From: Streptacidiphilus sp. ASG 303
GTDB lineage: Bacteria > Actinomycetota > Actinomycetes > Streptomycetales > Streptomycetaceae
Direction: 5' to 3'
Assembly (NCBI RefSeq): GCF_020991365.1
Contig: NZ_JAJLRA010000007.1
Span: forward strand, 1-64,000
DNA: 64,000 nucleotides
Below the pieces are notes generated by a model. That model did no database searches. It was given only the letters and a program-made list of their open reading frames with translations, and was not told where the DNA came from. Each line of letters starts with the position of its first letter. Position 1 is the first letter of the stretch. Made by a program: the position numbers and the translations under genes. Shown here one piece after another: positions 15,497-25,965 of the stretch.

Positions 15497-16606
15497 GTGA
15501 GCGATACCAGCGCAGCGACCCCCGTACCGACGCCCGGCACCAGCACCCGGCAGCCCGCCGCGGCACGCGGCGCCGCCCACGACTCGGCCTTCCTGCGCGC
15601 CTGCCGGCGCGAGGCCGTGCCGCACACCCCCGTGTGGTTCATGAGGCAGGCCGGCCGGTCGCTGCCCGAGTACCTCAAGGTGCGCGAAGGCGTGGCGATG
15701 CTCGACTCCTGCATGCGGCCCGACCTGGTCAAGGAGATCACCCTGCAGCCGGTGCGCCGGCACGGGGTGGACGCGGCCATCTACTTCAGCGACATCGTGG
15801 TGCCGCTCAAGGCCATCGGCCTGGACCTCGACATCAAGCCCGGCGTCGGCCCCGTCGTCGCCGACCCGATCCGCACCCGCGCCGACCTGGAGCGGCTGCG
15901 CCCGCTGGAGCCGGACGACGTCCGCTACATCACCGAGGCCGTCGGCCTGCTGGTGGACGAGCTCGGCGCCACCCCGCTGATCGGCTTCGCCGGCGCGCCC
16001 TTCACCCTCGCCAGCTACCTGGTCGAGGGCGGCCCGTCCAAGAACCACGAGCGCACCAAGGCGATGATGTACGGCGAGCCCGGGCTCTGGGCCGACCTGC
16101 TCGACCGCCTCGCCGACATCACCGCGGCCTTCCTGAAGGTGCAGATCGAGGCGGGCGCCTCCGCCGTGCAGCTCTTCGACTCCTGGGTCGGCGCCCTCGC
16201 CCCCCGGGACTACCGTGCCTCCGTGATGCCCGCCAGCCGCAAGGTCTTCGACGCCGTCGCCGGGTACGGCGTGCCCCGCATCCACTTCGGCGTGGGCACC
16301 GGCGAGCTGCTCGGACTGATGGGCGAGGCCGGCGCGGACGTCGTCGGCGTCGACTGGCGGGTGCCGCTGGACGAGGCGCACCGGCGGGTCGGCCCCGGCA
16401 AGGCCCTCCAGGGCAACCTCGACCCGGCGGTGCTCTTCGCCCCCGAGTCGGCGGTGCGGGCCAAGGCCGACGAGGTGCTCGCCGCCGCCGGGGCCCTCGG
16501 CGGCACCGGCCACGTCTTCAACCTCGGCCACGGCGTGCTGCCCACCACCGACCCCGACGCGCTGACCCGCCTGGTGGCGTACGTCCACGAGGCGACCGCC
16601 CGCTGA
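15497..16606 (+). CDS. hemE: uroporphyrinogen decarboxylase
   Basis: Decarboxylates uroporphyrinogen III to coproporphyrinogen III. It has 369 residues, with an N-terminal extension of about 30. Family motifs present: [15 protein letters not shown] (substrate-binding Arg residues), [30 protein letters not shown], and [13 protein letters not shown] 15497 has no clear Shine-Dalgarno; AAGATT lies 6 nt upstream and might be a -10 of a leaderless transcript. It heads the heme genes of the window, with cgoX and chdC about 1.5-3 kb downstream on the same strand, separated by the opposing DUF4349 gene. Confidence 0.96.
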
Positions 16607-16747
16607 CCGGTACCGCCCGCTGACCGGCACCGCTTCCCGACCGGTGCCGTCCGCCGATCCGGCATCGCCCGCCGGTCCGGCTGCCCGCCCCGCCGCCCTC
16701 CGGCCCGGGGCGGGCCGCCGCGCCGGGGCCGGGGGCGGCCCCTCCGG

Positions 16748-17767
16748 TCAGCTCCCCCCGGCCGGGGCCGCCGGCTCCACGGGCCCCGGCGGGGCGGCCG
16801 GTACGCGGCCCGCCGCCCGGCGGCGCCGCGCCAGCCGCACCGCCAGCCATCCGGCGGGCGCCAGGACCAGGGCGAAGGGCGCGACGGCCGCGAGGCACAC
16901 CAGCAGCCCGCGCGCGGTCACGTACAGCGCGTGCCAGCCCGCCCCCAGTGCGTGTCCCGCCGACGCCCAGAACCCCCGGTGCCCGCCGCCCGGCGCCGCG
17001 GCCGGGTCCGGCGAGGGGGCGACGAGGTCGACCGTGAGGGTGGAGAGCGCCGTCCGGGAGGCCAGCTCCTGCTGCTGCCGCTCCAGCGACTCCAGGTCGG
17101 CCTCCCGCCGGCCCAGTTCGGCCTCCAGGGCCACCACGTCGGTGATGCCGGCCGCCCGGTCCATGAGCGCGCGGACGCGCGCCACGCTGGCGCGCTGCGT
17201 CCTCAGCCGACTCTCCACGTCGACCACCCGGTCGGTGACGTCCTCGGCCTCGCGGTGCCGCCGGAGCACCCGCCCCAGCCGTCCGGCGCCCGCCAGGGTC
17301 CGGTCGAAGGCGGCCGCCGGCACCTTGGCCACCAGCTGCGCCCCCTCCTGCGGATCCCCGCCGGGCGTGGCCGCACCCCCCTGGCCGGACGCCGTCTCGC
17401 TGCTCACGTAGCCGCCCGCGCCGGTGACCAGGCCGTGCAGGCGCTCCAGCGTGCCCGCCACGTCCGCGGCCTCCAGCTCCAGCTCGGCGGTGTACGCGAT
17501 GGACCGCCCCGCGGTCGCCGCGGCGGACGGACTCCCCGCCGGGGTCCCCGCCCCCGTGGGGCCGGCGCCCGGCAGGGCCGCCGCGGCCCTGCCGCCGCCC
17601 TCCTTCGCCGCGCCGCCCGCCGCGGAGTCCTGCGCCCGGGCCGCGCCCGGCACCGCTTTGTCCGCCGCGCTCGGGCCGCTGCCGCTCCCGGCGCTGCACC
17701 CCGCGCCCAGCAGGGCCAGCGCCGCCAGCAGCGCACCCCCCGCGGCGGTGGCCGCTCTGCCGCTCAT
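16748..17767 (-). CDS. DUF4349 lipoprotein
   Basis: A 339-residue envelope protein. The signal peptide ends in the lipobox LLGAGC (Cys at about 24). A low-complexity Ala/Gly linker precedes the DUF4349 core (about 90-255), which begins IAYTAELELEAADVAGTLERL and includes a predicted coiled coil (DVVALEAELGRREADLESLE). A C-terminal hydrophobic segment (about 285-310) and a basic Arg tail follow, suggesting an extracytoplasmic domain tethered at both ends. Function unknown. It lies between hemE and cgoX but on the opposite strand. Confidence 0.82.
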   Translation of the reverse strand: MSGRAATAAGGALLAALALLGAGCSAGSGSGPSAADKAVPGAARAQDSAAGGAAKEGGGRAAAALPGAGPTGAGTPAGSPSAAATAGRSIAYTAELELEAADVAGTLERLHGLVTGAGGYVSSETASGQGGAATPGGDPQEGAQLVAKVPAAAFDRTLAGAGRLGRVLRRHREAEDVTDRVVDVESRLRTQRASVARVRALMDRAAGITDVVALEAELGRREADLESLERQQQELASRTALSTLTVDLVAPSPDPAAAPGGGHRGFWASAGHALGAGWHALYVTARGLLVCLAAVAPFALVLAPAGWLAVRLARRRRAAGRVPAAPPGPVEPAAPAGGS

Positions 17768-17911
17768 CCCCGTTCCCCCTCGTCCTGTCCCGCCGGCCCC
17801 TGCGGACCGCCCGCACCGTCCCGCCGCCGATCCGGCGGCGACGGGGATGGGACGCGGCCGGCCGTCCCGCGTTCCCGACCGTGCGTTGCGAAAGGGTCAC
17901 GGTCCGGAACG

Positions 17912-17925
17912 CCCGCGATCGCGGG
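17912..17925. promoter_or_regulatory. perfect 14-bp palindrome between divergent DUF4349 and cgoX genes
   Basis: CCCGCGATCGCGGG in the 294-bp divergent intergenic region (17768-18061). It could be an operator; such GC-rich palindromes are also expected by chance. Confidence 0.25.
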
Positions 17926-18061
17926 TCCTTTGCCCGCTCCACGCCGGGGTCCCGCCCGGCTCCGCTCCGGGTTCCGCCTGCTCCCCGCCGGGCCGGACGG
18001 CCCCCGCGGACGGGCCGCCCGTCCGTCCTGCCCGTCCGCCCCGGTCTGCGAGAGTGGGACC

Positions 18062-19555
18062 ATGAACCCGAGCGCAGCCGCCGACCGACGCACCGATCCC
18101 GCAGCCGGCCCGGAGGGCGGGCCGCCGCACGTGGTCGTCGTCGGCGGCGGTATCGCCGGCCTGGCCGCAGCCGCGTTCCTCACCGGCGCCGCGGGCGGGG
18201 GCGGCCCGCGCGCCCGGGTGACCGTCCTGGAGGCCTCCGCCAGGTTCGGCGGCAAGCTCCGCCCCGGCGAGGTCGGCGGCGTCGCCGTGGACCTCGGCGC
18301 CGAGTCCATGCTGGCCCGCCGCCCCGAGGCGGTCGACCTCGCCCGCGACGTCGGCCTGGCCGACGCGATGGAGCCCCCGGCGACCGCCAGGGCCGCCGTC
18401 TGGACCCGCGGCGCGCTGCGCCCGCTGCCCACCGGCCACGTCATGGGCGTGCCCGGCGACCTGGAGGCGCTGGAGCGCAGCGGCGTGCTCTCCCCCGAGG
18501 GCCTGGAGCGCGTCCGGCAGGACCTCGTCCTGCCCCCCACCGAGGTCGGCGACGACGTCTCCATCGGCGACTGGGTCGCCGCCCGGGTCGGCAGGGAGGT
18601 CGTGGACCGCCTGGTCGAGCCGCTGCTCGGCGGCGTCTACGCCGGCCACGCCGACCGGATCTCGCTCCGGGCCGCCGTGCCCCAGCTGCTGCCCCTGGCC
18701 CGGAGCGGCGGCTCCCTCGTGGAGGGCGTCCGAGCCCTCCAGCAGCGCGCCGCCGCGGCCGCGCCGGCGGTGCCCCCGCCGGTCTTCCAGGGCATCGCCG
18801 GCGGTGTCGGCCGCCTCCCCGGCGCGGTCGCCGACGCGGCCCGCGCCGCCGGGGCCGAGCTGCGCCCCGGCACCGAGGTCCGCGCGCTGCGCCGCACCCC
18901 GCACGGCTGGCGGCTGGCCGTCCGTGACGCCGACGGCGAGCACGGCCTCGACGCCGACGCCGTCGTGCTGGCCGTCCCCGCTCCCGCCGCGGCCCGGCTC
19001 CTCGCCGCCGAGGAGCCCGCGGCCGCCGCCGAGCTCGCGGCGGTCGAGTACGCGGGCATGGCCCTGGTGACCCTGGCCTTCGACCGCGCGGCGATGCCCG
19101 CCGGGCTGACCGGCAGCGGCTTCCTGGTGCCGCCGGTGGACGGCCGCGCGATCAAGGCGTCCACCTTCTCCACCAACAAGTGGGGCTGGCTCGACCGCTC
19201 CGCGCCGGACCGCTTCCTGCTGCGGACCTCGGTCGGCCGGCACGGCGAGGACGCCGAGCTGGGCCTGCCCGACGAGGAGCTGGTCGCCCGCTCGCTGGCG
19301 GCCCTGCGGGAGGCCGTGGGGCTGGAGGCCGTCCCGTACGCGACCGAGGTGACCCGGTGGCAGGGCGGCCTGCCGCAGTACCCGGTGGGGCACCCCGACC
19401 GGGTGCGGCGGATCCGGGAGCGGGCCGCCCGCCACGGCACGCTCGCACTGTGCGGCGCCGCGTACGACGGCGTCGGCATCCCCGCCTGCGTCGCGAGCGC
19501 GCGGCAGGCCGCCGACGCGGTCGCCGGCGCCCTCGCCGCGGCGGCCGCCCGGTGA
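18062..19555 (+). CDS. cgoX: coproporphyrinogen III / protoporphyrinogen oxidase
   Basis: FAD-dependent oxidase of the HemY family (497 residues). In actinobacteria it oxidises coproporphyrinogen III to coproporphyrin III. The N-terminal dinucleotide fold [17 protein letters not shown] is near residue 22, followed by [13 protein letters not shown] and [12 protein letters not shown]. The C-terminal FAD motif is [23 protein letters not shown] 18062 sits 6 nt after GAGAGT, so the transcript may be near-leaderless. The companion decarboxylase gene chdC follows 80 bp downstream, supporting the coproporphyrin rather than the classical route. Confidence 0.93.
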
Positions 19556-19635
19556 GACCGCCCGGGGGCGGCGCCCCGGCGAGCCGCCCGGGACCCGGTG
19601 GACCGGGGACCCCCGACGAGGAGGAGAATGAGGCC

Positions 19636-20343
19636 ATGAGCGAGAGCACCCAGCCCGAGAAGAAGAAGGCCCGCGACCTCAACCAGGTCGTCCGCTACAC
19701 CATGTGGTCGGTCTTCCGCCTCAAGGAGGCGCTGCCGGAGGACCGCTCCGCGTACGCCGCCGAGGTCGACGAGCTCTTCGCGCAGCTGAGGGAGAAGGAC
19801 GTCGTGGTGCGCGGCACCTACGACGTCTCCGGGCTGCGCGCCGACGCCGACGTCCTGGTCTGGTGGCACGCGGAGACCTCCGACGCCCTGCAGGACGCCT
19901 ACAACCGCTTCCGCCGCACCGGGCTGGGCCGCCACCTGGAGCCGGTCTGGTCGAACATGGCGCTGCACCGGCCCGCGGAGTTCAACAAGTCGCACATCCC
20001 GGCCTTCCTCGCCGACGAGGAGCCGCGCGGCTACGTCTGCGTGTACCCGTTCGTCCGCTCGTACGACTGGTACCTGCTCCCCGACGAGGACCGCCGCCGG
20101 ATGCTCGCCGAGCACGGCATGATGGCGCGCGGCTACCCCGACGTGCGGGCCAACACCGTCGCCTCGTTCGCGCTGGGCGACTACGAGTGGCTGCTCGCCT
20201 TCGAGGCCGACGAGCTGCACCGCATCGTGGACCTGATGCGCCACCTGCGCGCCTCCAGCGCCCGGCTGCACGTCCGCGAGGAGGTGCCGTTCTACACCGG
20301 CCGCCGCAAGTCGGTCGCCGAGCTGCTGGCCGGCCTGGTCTGA
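19636..20343 (+). CDS. chdC: coproheme decarboxylase (HemQ)
   Basis: Converts iron-coproporphyrin III to heme b by two oxidative decarboxylations with peroxide. It has 235 residues, the usual length. The actinobacterial-type core includes [46 protein letters not shown] (Y143 is a candidate for the catalytic Tyr) and [22 protein letters not shown] 19636 follows GAGGAG. Cotranscription with cgoX is likely (80-bp gap, no hairpin). It converges with the Cys-repeat membrane protein gene. Confidence 0.95.
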
Positions 20344-20394: not shown

Positions 20395-21468
20395 TCAGGT
20401 GCTGCTGCCGCAGCTGGACGAGGACCCGCAGCTGGAGGGCGACCCGCAGCTGGAGGACGACCCGCAGCTGGACGAGGACCCGCAGCTCGACGACGAACCG
20501 CAGCTCGAGGACGAACCGCAGCTGGACGAGGACCCGCAGCTCGACGACGAGCCGCAGCTCGACGACGACCCGCAGCCCGACCCGCCGCCGTCCGATCCCC
20601 CCGGCGACGCCCCGCACCAGACCGCCGGCGACCAGTCCGCACCGGAGCCCGCGGACCCCGGGCCGCCCGCGCCGGTCCCGCCCGGCACCGGCGTCAGCGC
20701 CGACCGCAGCGCCGGGTCGGCGATCATCGCCGTGCCGCCCAGCGCCAGCGCGCCCAGCAGCGCCGGGTCCGGCGCCGTCATCGCGTCGTGCGGCCGCCAC
20801 GGCCCGCCGCCGGCCCGCATCAGCTGCAGCTGGCGCCGTCCCGCCGGGCTGATCCGGCCGCGCCCCGGCGACGTCACCACCATCACCAGCAGCCCGTACA
20901 CGAAGACCCCCAGGAAGGCGGGGAACGGCGGGAAGAGGCCGCCGTCCCCGGAGAGGCCCGACAGGGCGTCCACCCACCGGTAGGTCGCCACCGCCCCCAG
21001 CACCAGCGTCAGCGCCATCGCCCAGCCCAGCAGGTTCCGGGCGGTCCGGACGCGCCGGTGCGCGGCGGGCCGCCGCATCAGGCCGCGGTCGGCCAGCCGG
21101 TCGCCCACCGCCTGGACGGCGGGGCTGCGCATCAGCGCCGGCCGGAGCTCCGCCACGTGCCGCTGCCGGCCCGGTCCGGCGGCGGCGACCAGCGCGGCCT
21201 CCACCTCGTCCCACGGCTGCGGGTCGGTCACCGTGACCGTCCCGCCGCGGGAGACGACGGCCCGCCCCTGCTGCTGCATGCGCACCAGCGCGACCTCCGC
21301 CGCCCGCCTCGGCCCCCCGGCCAGGAACGCCGCCTCCAGCAGCGGCAGACCGCGCCCCGGCAGGCCGTGCGGCGCGGGTGCCCGGCGCATCCGGGCGCCC
21401 GCCCAGCCGGCGTCGACCGACGCGGCCAGCACCGCCGTGCTCGCCACCGCGAACTCCGTCCCCCACAT
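20395..21468 (-). CDS. TIGR04222-like membrane protein with C-terminal Cys-Gly-Ser repeat tail; putative MNIO substrate
   Basis: A 357-residue protein with three parts. The N-terminal domain (about 1-140) carries FAVASTAVLAAS at its very start and a basic loop. Two hydrophobic segments follow (about 147-166 and 185-205), so the protein is membrane-anchored. After a linker come ten cysteines at exact 6-residue spacing, C299 to C353, as CGSSSS (eight units), CGSPSS (one) and a final CGSST. ATG 21468 shares its A with the TGA of the upstream gene. Last gene of a three-gene operon with an MNIO (DUF692) enzyme and a DUF2063-like partner. I infer the tail is the peptide modified by the enzyme. Confidence 0.85.
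   Translation of the reverse strand: MWGTEFAVASTAVLAASVDAGWAGARMRRAPAPHGLPGRGLPLLEAAFLAGGPRRAAEVALVRMQQQGRAVVSRGGTVTVTDPQPWDEVEAALVAAAGPGRQRHVAELRPALMRSPAVQAVGDRLADRGLMRRPAAHRRVRTARNLLGWAMALTLVLGAVATYRWVDALSGLSGDGGLFPPFPAFLGVFVYGLLVMVVTSPGRGRISPAGRRQLQLMRAGGGPWRPHDAMTAPDPALLGALALGGTAMIADPALRSALTPVPGGTGAGGPGSAGSGADWSPAVWCGASPGGSDGGGSGCGSSSSCGSSSSCGSSSSCGSSSSCGSSSSCGSSSSCGSSSSCGSPSSCGSSSSCGSST
20398..20574 (-). repeat. 18-bp coding tandem repeat (CGSSSS tail)
   Basis: Ten units of period 18 encode the Cys-Gly-Ser tail. DNA copies differ, mainly at third codon positions (GGG/GGC/GGT for Gly; TCC/TCG for Ser), while the peptide is constant except for one Ser-to-Pro change and the shortened last unit. 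Confidence 0.95.
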
Positions 21469-22025
21469 CAGCGTCCCCCTCCCCGCCGCCCCGTGGGCCC
21501 CCGCCCCGCGGCTCCCCGTCCTGCGGCCCCCCGCCCCGCGGGCCGGCCCCCGGGGCGCGGCGACGGCCCCGCGAGCGAGCCCGGCAGCGAACCCAGCAGG
21601 GCCCGGACCGTGCGGCGCGGCGCCGGTCCGGCCCGGTCGGCGTACCACCTCTCCAGCGCGCGCCTCTGACGCTTCGTCATCCCGTCCGCGTGGTCCAGGG
21701 CCCAGCGGGCGAACGCGAGCGCGTCCGCCCGGTAGCCGCCCGACAGCGCGGAGCCCTCCGCGTACCGCCGGAAGGCCGGGGCGAACCCGCCGCCCAGCAG
21801 CACCGGCAGCTCCGGCGCCACCTTGGCCACCGTGTCCCGCCGCTTCGCGGCCAGGCCCGCCGCCTGCACCCGCACCTGCGCCGCGTCGAAGCCGTCCGGC
21901 AGGGGCCCGCCCGCCACCAGGGCCGCCAGCAGCTCCGCCTGGCGGTGCGCCAGCCGGGTGCGGGCGAGGACCGTGCCGGGCTCCCCGGCACCCCGGGCCA
22001 CCAGGTACTCGTACTCCTCAGACAC
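21468..22025 (-). CDS. DUF2063-like partner protein of the MNIO enzyme
   Basis: A 185-residue protein. Residues about 20-125 ([39 protein letters not shown] and [21 protein letters not shown]) resemble the DUF2063-type partner proteins that bind precursor peptides for MNIO enzymes. It ends in a basic, low-complexity tail of Gly, Arg and Pro. The start overlaps the end of the MNIO gene by 8 bp, and its TGA shares a base with the ATG of the membrane protein, so all three are translationally coupled. By analogy with MbnC/TglI-type partners it would bring the substrate tail to the enzyme. Family assignment rests on pattern similarity only. Confidence 0.7.
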
Positions 22026-22875
22026 CTGCCGACACCCCCCTCCGCAGCACCCCGCGCACCGCGTCCAGCTCGGCGGCCAGCGCGGCGGGCGGCGGGAAGG
22101 CGTCGTCCCGCTCCAGCAGCACGCCGGGCGGGTCGGTGCGGGCGCACAGCTCGGCCAGCACCTCCAGCACCGGCCCGGTCACCGGGTGGGCGTGGGTGTC
22201 GTGCCACACCCCGTCGACCATCACCCCGCCGCCGACGTGCACGTAGGCGAGCGCGTCCAGGGGCAGGCGGTCCAGCTCGGCCGCCGGGTCCAGGCCGAGG
22301 TTGACCCGGTTGGTGTGCAGGTTGGCGACGTCCACCAGCAGCCCCACCCCGGTCCGCTCCACCAGTTCGGCGAGGAACTGCCCCTCCGTCAGCTCGTCGT
22401 CCGGCCAGGCCAGGTGCGCGGCGACGTTCTCCAGCGCCAGCGGCACCGGCAGCTCCTGCTGGGCGATGCGGACGTTCTCCGCCACCACCGCGAGGGCGTC
22501 GCGGGTGCGCGGCACGGGCAGCAGGTGGCCCGCCTCCATGCGGGGCAGGCCGGTGCCCGCCCCGCCCGCGCGGACGAAGGCCAGGTGCTCGGTGACCAGC
22601 GGCGCGTCCAGCGCCCGCGCCGTCGCGGCGAGCGAGGCCAGCCGGTCCGGGTCGGGCAGGTCCGCGCCGCCCAGGCCCAGCGAGACGCCGTGCGGGACGA
22701 CGGTCGTGCCGCGCTCCCGCAGCAGCCGCAGCGACTCCGGCAGGTGGCCCGGGCAGACGTTCTCCGCGACCACCTCCACCCAGTCGACGCCGGGCATCCG
22801 CTCCACCACCGTGTCGATCTCCGCCCGCCAGCCGATGCCCACTCCGAGACGGGGGAGTGGTGTGCCGCGTCCCAT
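22018..22875 (-). CDS. MNIO-family (DUF692) multinuclear non-heme iron oxidative enzyme
   Basis: A 285-residue TIM-barrel enzyme of the MbnB/TglH family, which uses two or three iron ions to rearrange cysteine or other side chains in ribosomal peptides. Candidate metal ligands are in place: H62 ([12 protein letters not shown]), E96/H97 (TEHLAF), E149 (ALENVAAH), D182, N185 and H187 ([11 protein letters not shown]), H213 (YVHVGGG), D226, H228 and H230 (HDTHAHP) and E255 (LLERDD). The N-terminus [10 protein letters not shown] is typical. ATG 22875 has AAGGGGG upstream. First gene of the operon. The natural substrate is presumably the Cys-repeat tail encoded two genes downstream. Confidence 0.9.
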
Positions 22876-25533: not shown

Positions 25534-25965
25534 TCAGCCCTCGGCGCCGTCCGCGGGGCGCAGCCGCAGCGAGATGCTGTTGATGCAGTACCGCTGGTCG
25601 GTGGGCGTGTCGTACCCCTCGCCCTCGAAGACGTGCCCGAGGTGCGACCCGCAGGACGCGCAGCGCACCTCCACCCGGCGCATGCCGAGGGACGTGTCCT
25701 CGATGTACTCCACCCGGTCCTCGGCCAGCGGGGAGTAGAACGAGGGCCAGCCGCAGTGGCTGTCGAACTTGGTGCCGGAGGTGAACAGCTCCGCGCCGCA
25801 CGCCCGGCAGGAGTACACGCCCACGGTCCTCGTGTCGGTGTACTCGCCGGTGTGCGGCCGCTCGGTGCCCGCCTCGCGGAGCACGTGGTACTCCGCGGGG
25901 GTGAGCTCCTCGCGCCACTCGGCGTCGCTCTTCTCGACCCTGTACTTCCCGGTCTGCGGTTCCAC
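25534..25965 (-). CDS. msrB: peptide-methionine (R)-S-oxide reductase
   Basis: Repairs methionine-R-sulfoxide in proteins. It has 143 residues. Two CxxC zinc motifs are visible (SCRACGAELF and RCASCGSHLGHVF) along with the catalytic RYCINSISLRL. KFDSHCGWPSFY is the substrate-binding segment. GTG 25965 was chosen over an in-frame ATG at 26037 because GGAAGGAGC precedes it and homology starts there. It lies downstream of murC on the same strand with the coding regions 52 bp apart. Confidence 0.95.
   Translation of the reverse strand: MEPQTGKYRVEKSDAEWREELTPAEYHVLREAGTERPHTGEYTDTRTVGVYSCRACGAELFTSGTKFDSHCGWPSFYSPLAEDRVEYIEDTSLGMRRVEVRCASCGSHLGHVFEGEGYDTPTDQRYCINSISLRLRPADGAEG

Follow-up and report, generated by a model that had tools for sequence, protein, structure and literature searches.

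The stretch of DNA considered here (the window) is 64,000 nucleotides long and comprises positions 1 to 64,000 of the forward strand of contig NZ_JAJLRA010000007.1 from Streptacidiphilus sp. ASG 303 (assembly GCF_020991365.1). A trio of overlapping genes is found on the minus strand of the window. The first gene (22018..22875) encodes a multinuclear non-heme iron-dependent oxidative enzyme (MNIO; DUF692) of 285 amino acids. The second gene (21468..22025) lies directly after the first, overlaps it by 8 bp, and encodes a partner protein of 185 amino acids that begins with a GTG codon. The third gene (20395..21468) has one base in common with the partner gene and encodes a TIGR04222 membrane protein of 357 amino acids, the putative substrate; it comes after both the MNIO and the partner. 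These coordinates, the two overlaps, and the residues named in an earlier reading of the same DNA (the original prediction) were all confirmed on the sequence. A profile search of the genome returned a single TIGR04222 match, and the nearest named loci among the matches listed are from Kitasatospora and Streptomyces.

RESULTS

Cysteine-Rich Tail of the Membrane Protein

The tail of the membrane protein contains 11 cysteines. The first of these is found in the sequence W284-C285-G286 (20611..20619, minus strand), and the other ten are spaced every six residues from C299 to C353. The ten belong to CGSSSS-type repeats made of 18-bp units, the last of which is incomplete (20398..20574, minus strand), and the tandem repeat call spans 20408–20576. 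The original prediction had described these ten cysteines exactly and had missed C285. The nine full units (residues 299–352) differ from one another almost solely at the third codon positions, with a single amino acid change, S344P.

Homologous tails were taken from loci that we chose among the matches listed. These loci form three partly overlapping sets, denoted as first, named, and class-wide. The first two sets provided 105 distinct tails with 776 cysteines, and these counts retain one tail (L148, first set) that looks frame-shifted. The residue after the cysteine was found to be Gly in 619 of the 776 cases (80%), against a Gly background of 33%, with Ser and Ala at 14% and 5%, respectively. 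A charged residue follows in 3 of the 776. The residue before the cysteine is Ser (59%), Gly (29%), or Trp (9%), and the WC pair seen in the window is present in 70 of the 105 tails. The number of cysteines per tail ranges from 2 to 14, and the spacing between them is mostly 4 to 10. Since this spacing varies among the relatives, the six-residue period is local to the window. The repeat is not a product of chance, because the differences between the units are nearly all synonymous and because Cys-Gly motifs are found in homologues with other spacings.

MNIO Enzyme

The MNIO matches Pfam family PF05114 with 258.7 bits (cut-off 25; E = 7e-77). The conserved metal-site residues are H62, H97, E149, D182, N185, H213, D226, H228, and E255, which are putative metal ligands, as in other MNIOs. 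In 142 of 142 related MNIOs, taken from two sets that overlap in part, these nine positions and D257 hold the same residues as in the window enzyme. Eight of them (H62, E149, D182, N185, H213, D226, H228, and E255) had been named beforehand and are both present and invariant, and H97 and D257 can now be added. Five plasmid-borne proteobacterial MNIOs also carry the ten residues, and four of these adjoin DUF2282 genes. D257 is equated with Asp249 of FonB because of the ERD motif and the description of that residue by Gadgil et al. (PMC12668002), and by this analogy D257 is likely the catalytic base.

The top NCBIfam model for the MNIO is that of the bufferin maturase BufB (NF050167; 181.9 bits), followed by HvfB (140.6 bits) and ApyH (123.2 bits). 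The enzyme falls under the cut-off of every NCBIfam equivalog listed. An AlphaFold2 model was obtained for a natural fusion of MNIO and partner from a Streptomyces locus, rather than for the window protein, with a mean predicted local distance difference test score (pLDDT) of 91 and a predicted template modeling score of 0.89. The MNIO part of this model aligns with TglH (8hi7) over 271 residues with a Z score of 27.3 and a root-mean-square deviation of 2.8, and with MbnB with a Z score of 25.8. The sequence identity to the TglH and MbnB structures is 19–25%. As modeled, this fused relative of the window enzyme has the TIM-barrel fold of the MNIO family. Some genomes of the family Streptomycetaceae also contain a separate MNIO group with higher scores of about 350–376 bits (G544:C195, G572:C1, G538:C1, G530:C1, G500:C22, and G627:C1).

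Partner Protein and Natural Fusions

The window partner has no match in Pfam or NCBIfam. A DUF2063 match at E ≤ 1 was found for 10 of 39 aligned members of the partner family (best E = 1.5e-5). The earlier description of the domain as DUF2063-like therefore holds through the relatives and finds no Pfam match in the window protein itself. The partner profile aligns with the expected region of six bufferin-type partners, and this alignment is weak (hhalign probability 27%, E = 6.7e-4). The C-terminus is rich in Gly, Arg, and Pro. A length of 185 amino acids and no DUF2063 signature set the protein apart from PME-type 1 partners, which have DUF2063 plus an RRE domain in 250–260 amino acids. PME-type 2 partners carry no DUF2063 signature and are related in structure to NGO1945 (3dee) or TglI. 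We take the window partner to be a short protein with a predicted DUF2063-like helical domain and without a full second (RRE) domain, as would fit "PME-type 2". A comparison of the partner profile with PDB sequences gave chance-level matches only, of which the best was a homeobox protein with E = 0.018. The fold matches listed for the fusion model contain no partner structure, which says nothing against a partner fold because they cover mainly residues 8–283.

The partner was found at 169 of 175 MNIO loci over the three sets and is in the same open frame as the MNIO at 75 of them. By set, it is present at 62 of 63 first-set loci (21 in one frame), 77 of 80 named loci (45 in one frame), and 30 of 32 class-wide loci (9 in one frame). 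These counts are not independent because the sets overlap in part. The first-set locus that lacks a partner, L153, scores low with the window-type MNIO profile and probably belongs to another subfamily. The three named loci that lack one have a contig end within 0.5 kb. The class-wide exceptions are L358, where the contig stops inside the MNIO gene, and L349, where no partner was detected. Natural fusions of MNIO and partner include L118, L126–L129, L131–L136, L216, L237, and others, some of which have long low-complexity linkers.

Topology of the TIGR04222 Protein

The TIGR04222 domain was identified with 104 bits against an NCBIfam cut-off of 43. The protein has no Pfam family match, and a PHROGs search returned no match. 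The AlphaFold2 model (mean pLDDT 80) shows a domain predicted with confidence and, after it, a tail that is disordered, and the pLDDT is below 50 for residues 267–278 and 288–348. No PDB fold matches the domain at E ≤ 0.001, and thus the fold offers no functional clue.

The original prediction had assigned two transmembrane segments to this protein. Hydropathy and the AlphaFold2 model instead give three long hydrophobic helices, at residues 2–28 (21385..21465), about 147–166 (20971..21030), and about 183–200 (20869..20922), all on the minus strand; the second and third are assigned as transmembrane helices. The first helix is weakly hydrophobic in the window protein and clear in the relatives. 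A fourth segment, a weakly hydrophobic helix-DP-helix before the tail (residues 235–258; 20695..20766, minus strand), was identified by hydropathy and the model; in the window protein its helix has 14 residues, its hydropathy is low, and it probably does not span the membrane. Strong hydrophobicity is seen for this segment in window-type locus L144 and in several members encoded ahead of the MNIO. Residues 25–144 and 203–232 are rich in Arg and Lys, and the loop between helices 2 and 3 is poor in both. The positive-inside pattern, together with the weak and short fourth helix, favors a tail on the cytosolic side of the membrane, which would be accessible to the enzyme. For the TIGR04222 members that they modeled, Antoine et al. 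deduce that the tail is periplasmic (PMC12452194).

Distribution of the Cys Tail and the MNIO

Matches at E ≤ 0.001 were collected from 247 genomes of the family of the window, the Streptomycetaceae. The MNIO was found in 204 of these and TIGR04222 in 208. The class-wide sample consists of 58 genomes outside the family, which we chose from 114 genomes over the cut-off, part of them inside the family. A tail was counted in this sample when at least two [GSW]C[GSA] motifs occurred in the last 130 residues, the motif having been picked after the tails of the first sets were viewed. A Cys-motif tail was found in 37 of the 39 genomes that have an MNIO and in 0 of the 19 that do not. One of the 39 (G689) was counted from an MNIO start visible at a contig end. 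In one of the two exceptions (G753), the enzyme and the partner are in one frame and the tail has no cysteine. The other (G790) has only an unlinked MNIO from another, higher-scoring group. In a further MNIO-bearing genome (G663) the tail is present and the MNIO match is partial and unlinked. The Cys-tailed TIGR04222 frame of this genome (L363) continues into partner-like residues and may represent a decayed locus.

Inside the family, 25 genomes that lack the window-type MNIO were examined, and a Cys-rich TIGR04222 tail was found in none of them. Of these 25, 22 have no MNIO over the cut-off and 3 have divergent ones only; 24 have TIGR04222 over the cut-off, and one has a match below it. That the enzyme, the partner, and the tail belong together, as had been proposed, is borne out by the shared enzyme-partner frames and by the finding that no MNIO-less genome examined has a Cys-motif tail. 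It seems that the Cys tail needs the MNIO and that the MNIO does not need the Cys tail, because the tails are confined to MNIO-bearing genomes in these samples, yet part of the MNIO loci have no tail.

A tree was built from 122 TIGR04222 domains, and it places the window protein in a clade of 28 tailed proteins (support 94, not starred). Each of the 28 is encoded near an MNIO gene: the distance is at most 0.8 kb for 27 of them and 1.6 kb for the remaining one, which is a second copy. Another clade, which is well supported, comprises 47 proteins, none with a Cys tail; an MNIO accompanies some of these and not others. Among the 122 rows, 51 have both an MNIO within 2.6 kb and a tail, 26 have the MNIO only, 36 have neither, and 9 have the tail only.

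Counting cysteines past the end of the profile was tried as a simpler measure and was rejected, since by itself it gave false tails in distant, low-scoring TIGR04222 proteins. By this measure 13 MNIO-less genomes had at least two cysteines, and six were left when a Gly/Ser-rich segment was required. In five of these six, a Gly-rich end is preceded by an LC-x-FA-x-LC-like segment with two cysteines, and the sixth is G689. At the MNIO-less loci L359, L361, L362, L370, and L371, a Gly/Ser/Asp-rich end without a Cys motif follows a Cys pair in an LC-x-FA-x-LC-like segment. The MNIO-less L203, a TIGR04222 match below the cut-off that is followed by 432 residues with 6 cysteines, was taken to be an unrelated protein and was dropped.

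DISCUSSION

Relation to Known Systems

The original prediction regarded the system as undescribed. However, the TIGR04222-MNIO arrangement and the proposal that the tail is the substrate are both found in Antoine et al. 2025, who reported TIGR04222 proteins near MNIO genes, noted their Ser/Gly-rich Cys tails, and proposed them as MNIO substrates (PMC12452194). Among the literature matches listed, this was the only paper to treat TIGR04222 in depth. The clusters reported there are mostly from Actinomycetota and have the same three components as the window, with a Ser/Gly-rich, disordered, Cys-containing C-terminus encoded beside the MNIO gene. The window locus is a new member of this predicted kind. 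The TIGR04222 gene of the window follows the MNIO and the partner, an order reported for over 10% of cases (PMC12452194).

There are also differences. PME-type 2 partners are predicted in at least 10% of the published clusters and many clusters are described as seemingly without a partner (PMC12452194), whereas nearly all of the MNIO loci sampled here have one. The fusions of MNIO and partner seen here are absent from the 12 passages on fusions that a word search found in that paper. The tail of the window protein may be cytosolic, whereas the published members are read as periplasmic. Over a quarter of the published proteins have no C-proximal cysteine and a third of the TIGR04222 genomes have no MNIO, and the main text of PMC12452194, as available, does not relate the two observations to each other. 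What is new here is the restriction of Cys tails to MNIO-bearing genomes among those sampled, the near-constant partner with its fusions, and the Cys-Gly rule.

The bufferins and captophorins (BufABC and FonABC) likewise depend on an MNIO and a DUF2063-type partner that act on many cysteines. Gadgil et al. describe the formation of 5-thiooxazole, which absorbs at roughly 305 nm, by an MNIO and PME1; FonBC favors a Cys-Gly dyad and did not process substrates with a charged residue at the +1 position (PMC12668002). The precursors in these systems are peptides with DUF2282 and with Lys-Cys or Cys-Lys motifs (PMC12668002), whereas the window protein is a membrane protein in which neither a Pfam family nor a Lys in the tail was found. 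Bufferins also carry Sec signals, and their partners are DUF2063-RRE proteins of 250–260 amino acids (PMC12452194), in contrast to the short partner of the window. TglHI (8hi7) and MbnBC (7dz9 and 7tcr) have the MNIO fold and a partner subunit in common with the system described here. TglHI acts on a cysteine appended to the peptide TglA, and MbnBC acts on the methanobactin precursor.

Proposed Function

We propose that the MNIO and the DUF2063-like partner would function as one enzyme in the cytosol. The partner would bring the disordered TIGR04222 tail to the active site, where the enzyme would oxidize the cysteines of [Ser/Gly]-Cys-Gly units. These independent and variably spaced units would be processed one by one. 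The likeliest product would be a 5-thiooxazole at several of the cysteines, each with 4 Da less mass, as formed by the bufferin and captophorin MNIOs, and the modified tail would stay attached to the membrane and bind copper or another soft metal. The tail is probably the substrate of the MNIO, a hypothesis that is strengthened by the distribution, the Cys-Gly rule, and the fusions. If so, a 5-thiooxazole is the product that we would favor, because the bufferin maturase is the top NCBIfam model and because FonBC obeys the same Cys-Gly rule. The proposed role in metal binding is inferred. The reading as a whole, that the MNIO and its partner oxidize the tail cysteines, likely to 5-thiooxazoles, and so produce a membrane-tethered, metal-binding brush, is one that we hold with moderate confidence.

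Several observations count against this proposal. The tail of the window protein does not have the Lys of the KCG and CK motifs in known substrates, and a score of 181.9 bits is far under the equivalog cut-off of 310 for the bufferin maturase (NF050167). No MNIO lies within 2.6 kb of nine Cys-tailed TIGR04222 genes in the first set; all nine of these genomes have an MNIO on another fetched stretch. The Fisher tests of the association between tail and MNIO ignore kinship, and the kinship-aware pair tests pointed in the direction of the association but were not significant (three runs, too few pairs). In one such run there were 8 supported pairs, and the tail followed the MNIO in 2.6 on average and the opposite in 0.0. 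The sub-cut-off matches L203, L199, and L202 were left out of the tree for the last pair test. The largest group of such observations concerns MNIO loci without a tail. The original prediction had named the loss of the tail with retention of the MNIO as a sign against it, and this sign is partly present. At 44 of the 142 MNIO loci, the enzyme keeps all ten conserved residues and the fetched stretch contains no TIGR04222 gene with a Cys tail; for 36 of the 44, 3 kb or more of downstream sequence is available. Three of the 44 reflect how they were chosen, since L117 and L118 were fetched because TIGR04222 is lacking and L153 was fetched because of its other MNIO. No TIGR04222 match at all was obtained for two genomes that carry a locus with MNIO and partner, G633 (one contig) and G541.

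The MNIO pair may modify the tail in a different manner, giving an oxazolone and thioamide or a 2-mercaptoglycine-type group, or acting at Ser, with a role such as redox buffering or cross-linking. MNIO chemistry is diverse, as seen from MbnB, TglH, ChrH, and ApyH in the names of the Pfam and NCBIfam matches; TglH is the nearest solved structure by Z score, and the enzyme is under every listed equivalog cut-off. However, the bufferin maturase is the top NCBIfam model and the Cys-Gly rule fits an enzyme that forms 5-thiooxazole, and we regard a different chemistry as unlikely.

It is quite unlikely, in our estimation, that the MNIO acts on another substrate and that the Cys tail is an unmodified metal-binding or disulfide-forming element that is inherited with the enzyme under the same conditions. 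The 44 tail-less loci with intact metal-site residues speak for this explanation. A candidate for the other substrate was also found. The genomes of 15 tail-less MNIO loci were searched for TIGR04222, with every candidate scored, and 9 of the 15 have an unlinked TIGR04222-like protein (L171–L179) with no obvious membrane helix, a short Gly-rich end, and mostly one or two cysteines, whereas two of the 15 gave no TIGR04222 match. In G487, one of the nine, a further unlinked TIGR04222 protein carries two Cys motifs. The unlinked soluble protein is a possible second substrate of the MNIO. Inspection by eye of 16 tail-less loci for a Cys-rich Gly/Ser stretch beside the MNIO gave no convincing candidate, and a wider collection of Cys-rich candidates at such loci gave none among the matches listed. 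Against another substrate stand the overlapping genes of the window, the frame shared by enzyme and partner in the relatives, and the absence of Cys tails from all of the 19 and 25 genomes that have no MNIO or none of the window type. It is highly improbable that the tail has no function and is a low-complexity product of slippage between repeats in GC-rich DNA: the 18-bp tandem repeat and the range of 2 to 14 cysteines would fit, but the unit differences are almost all synonymous, Cys-Gly is enriched across tails of different spacing, and the Gly/Ser-rich ends of several MNIO-less relatives have no Cys motifs.

MNIOs are known mainly for their action on short peptides. If the tail of a membrane protein is itself the target, as we propose, then MNIOs would also be protein-modification enzymes, and ones that are widespread in Streptomyces and its relatives. 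In its most specific form, in which a protein-modifying MNIO would convert about ten cysteines to heterocycles that are left on a membrane tail at the cytosolic face as a permanent copper-binding brush, by an enzyme and partner that are fused in many Streptomyces, the proposal is doubtful. The question of the substrate is directly testable, given a partner that is nearly constant, its natural fusions with the enzyme, and the restriction of Cys tails to MNIO-bearing genomes in our samples.

Neighboring Genes

The genes for hemE, protoporphyrinogen oxidase, and hemQ are convergent to the trio (15617–20340), and about 55 bp separate the end of the hemQ frame from the TIGR04222 stop codon. The fetched stretch contains hemQ at 26 of 26 window-type loci, at 16 of 16 MNIO-less tailless loci, and at none of the 9 Cys-tailed loci that lack an MNIO nearby. 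A link of the trio to heme was set aside, and the adjacency is read as conserved gene order, because hemQ is found equally at the MNIO-less tailless loci. A second TIGR04222 gene, without a tail, often follows the Cys-tailed one in window-type loci (L061, L075, L084, L122, and others), and relatives of this tandem gene occur in MNIO-less genomes as well. A gene for MsrB, a methionine sulfoxide reductase, is found near the trio (25537–25965) and is present in the fetched stretch of 10 of the 26 window-type loci.

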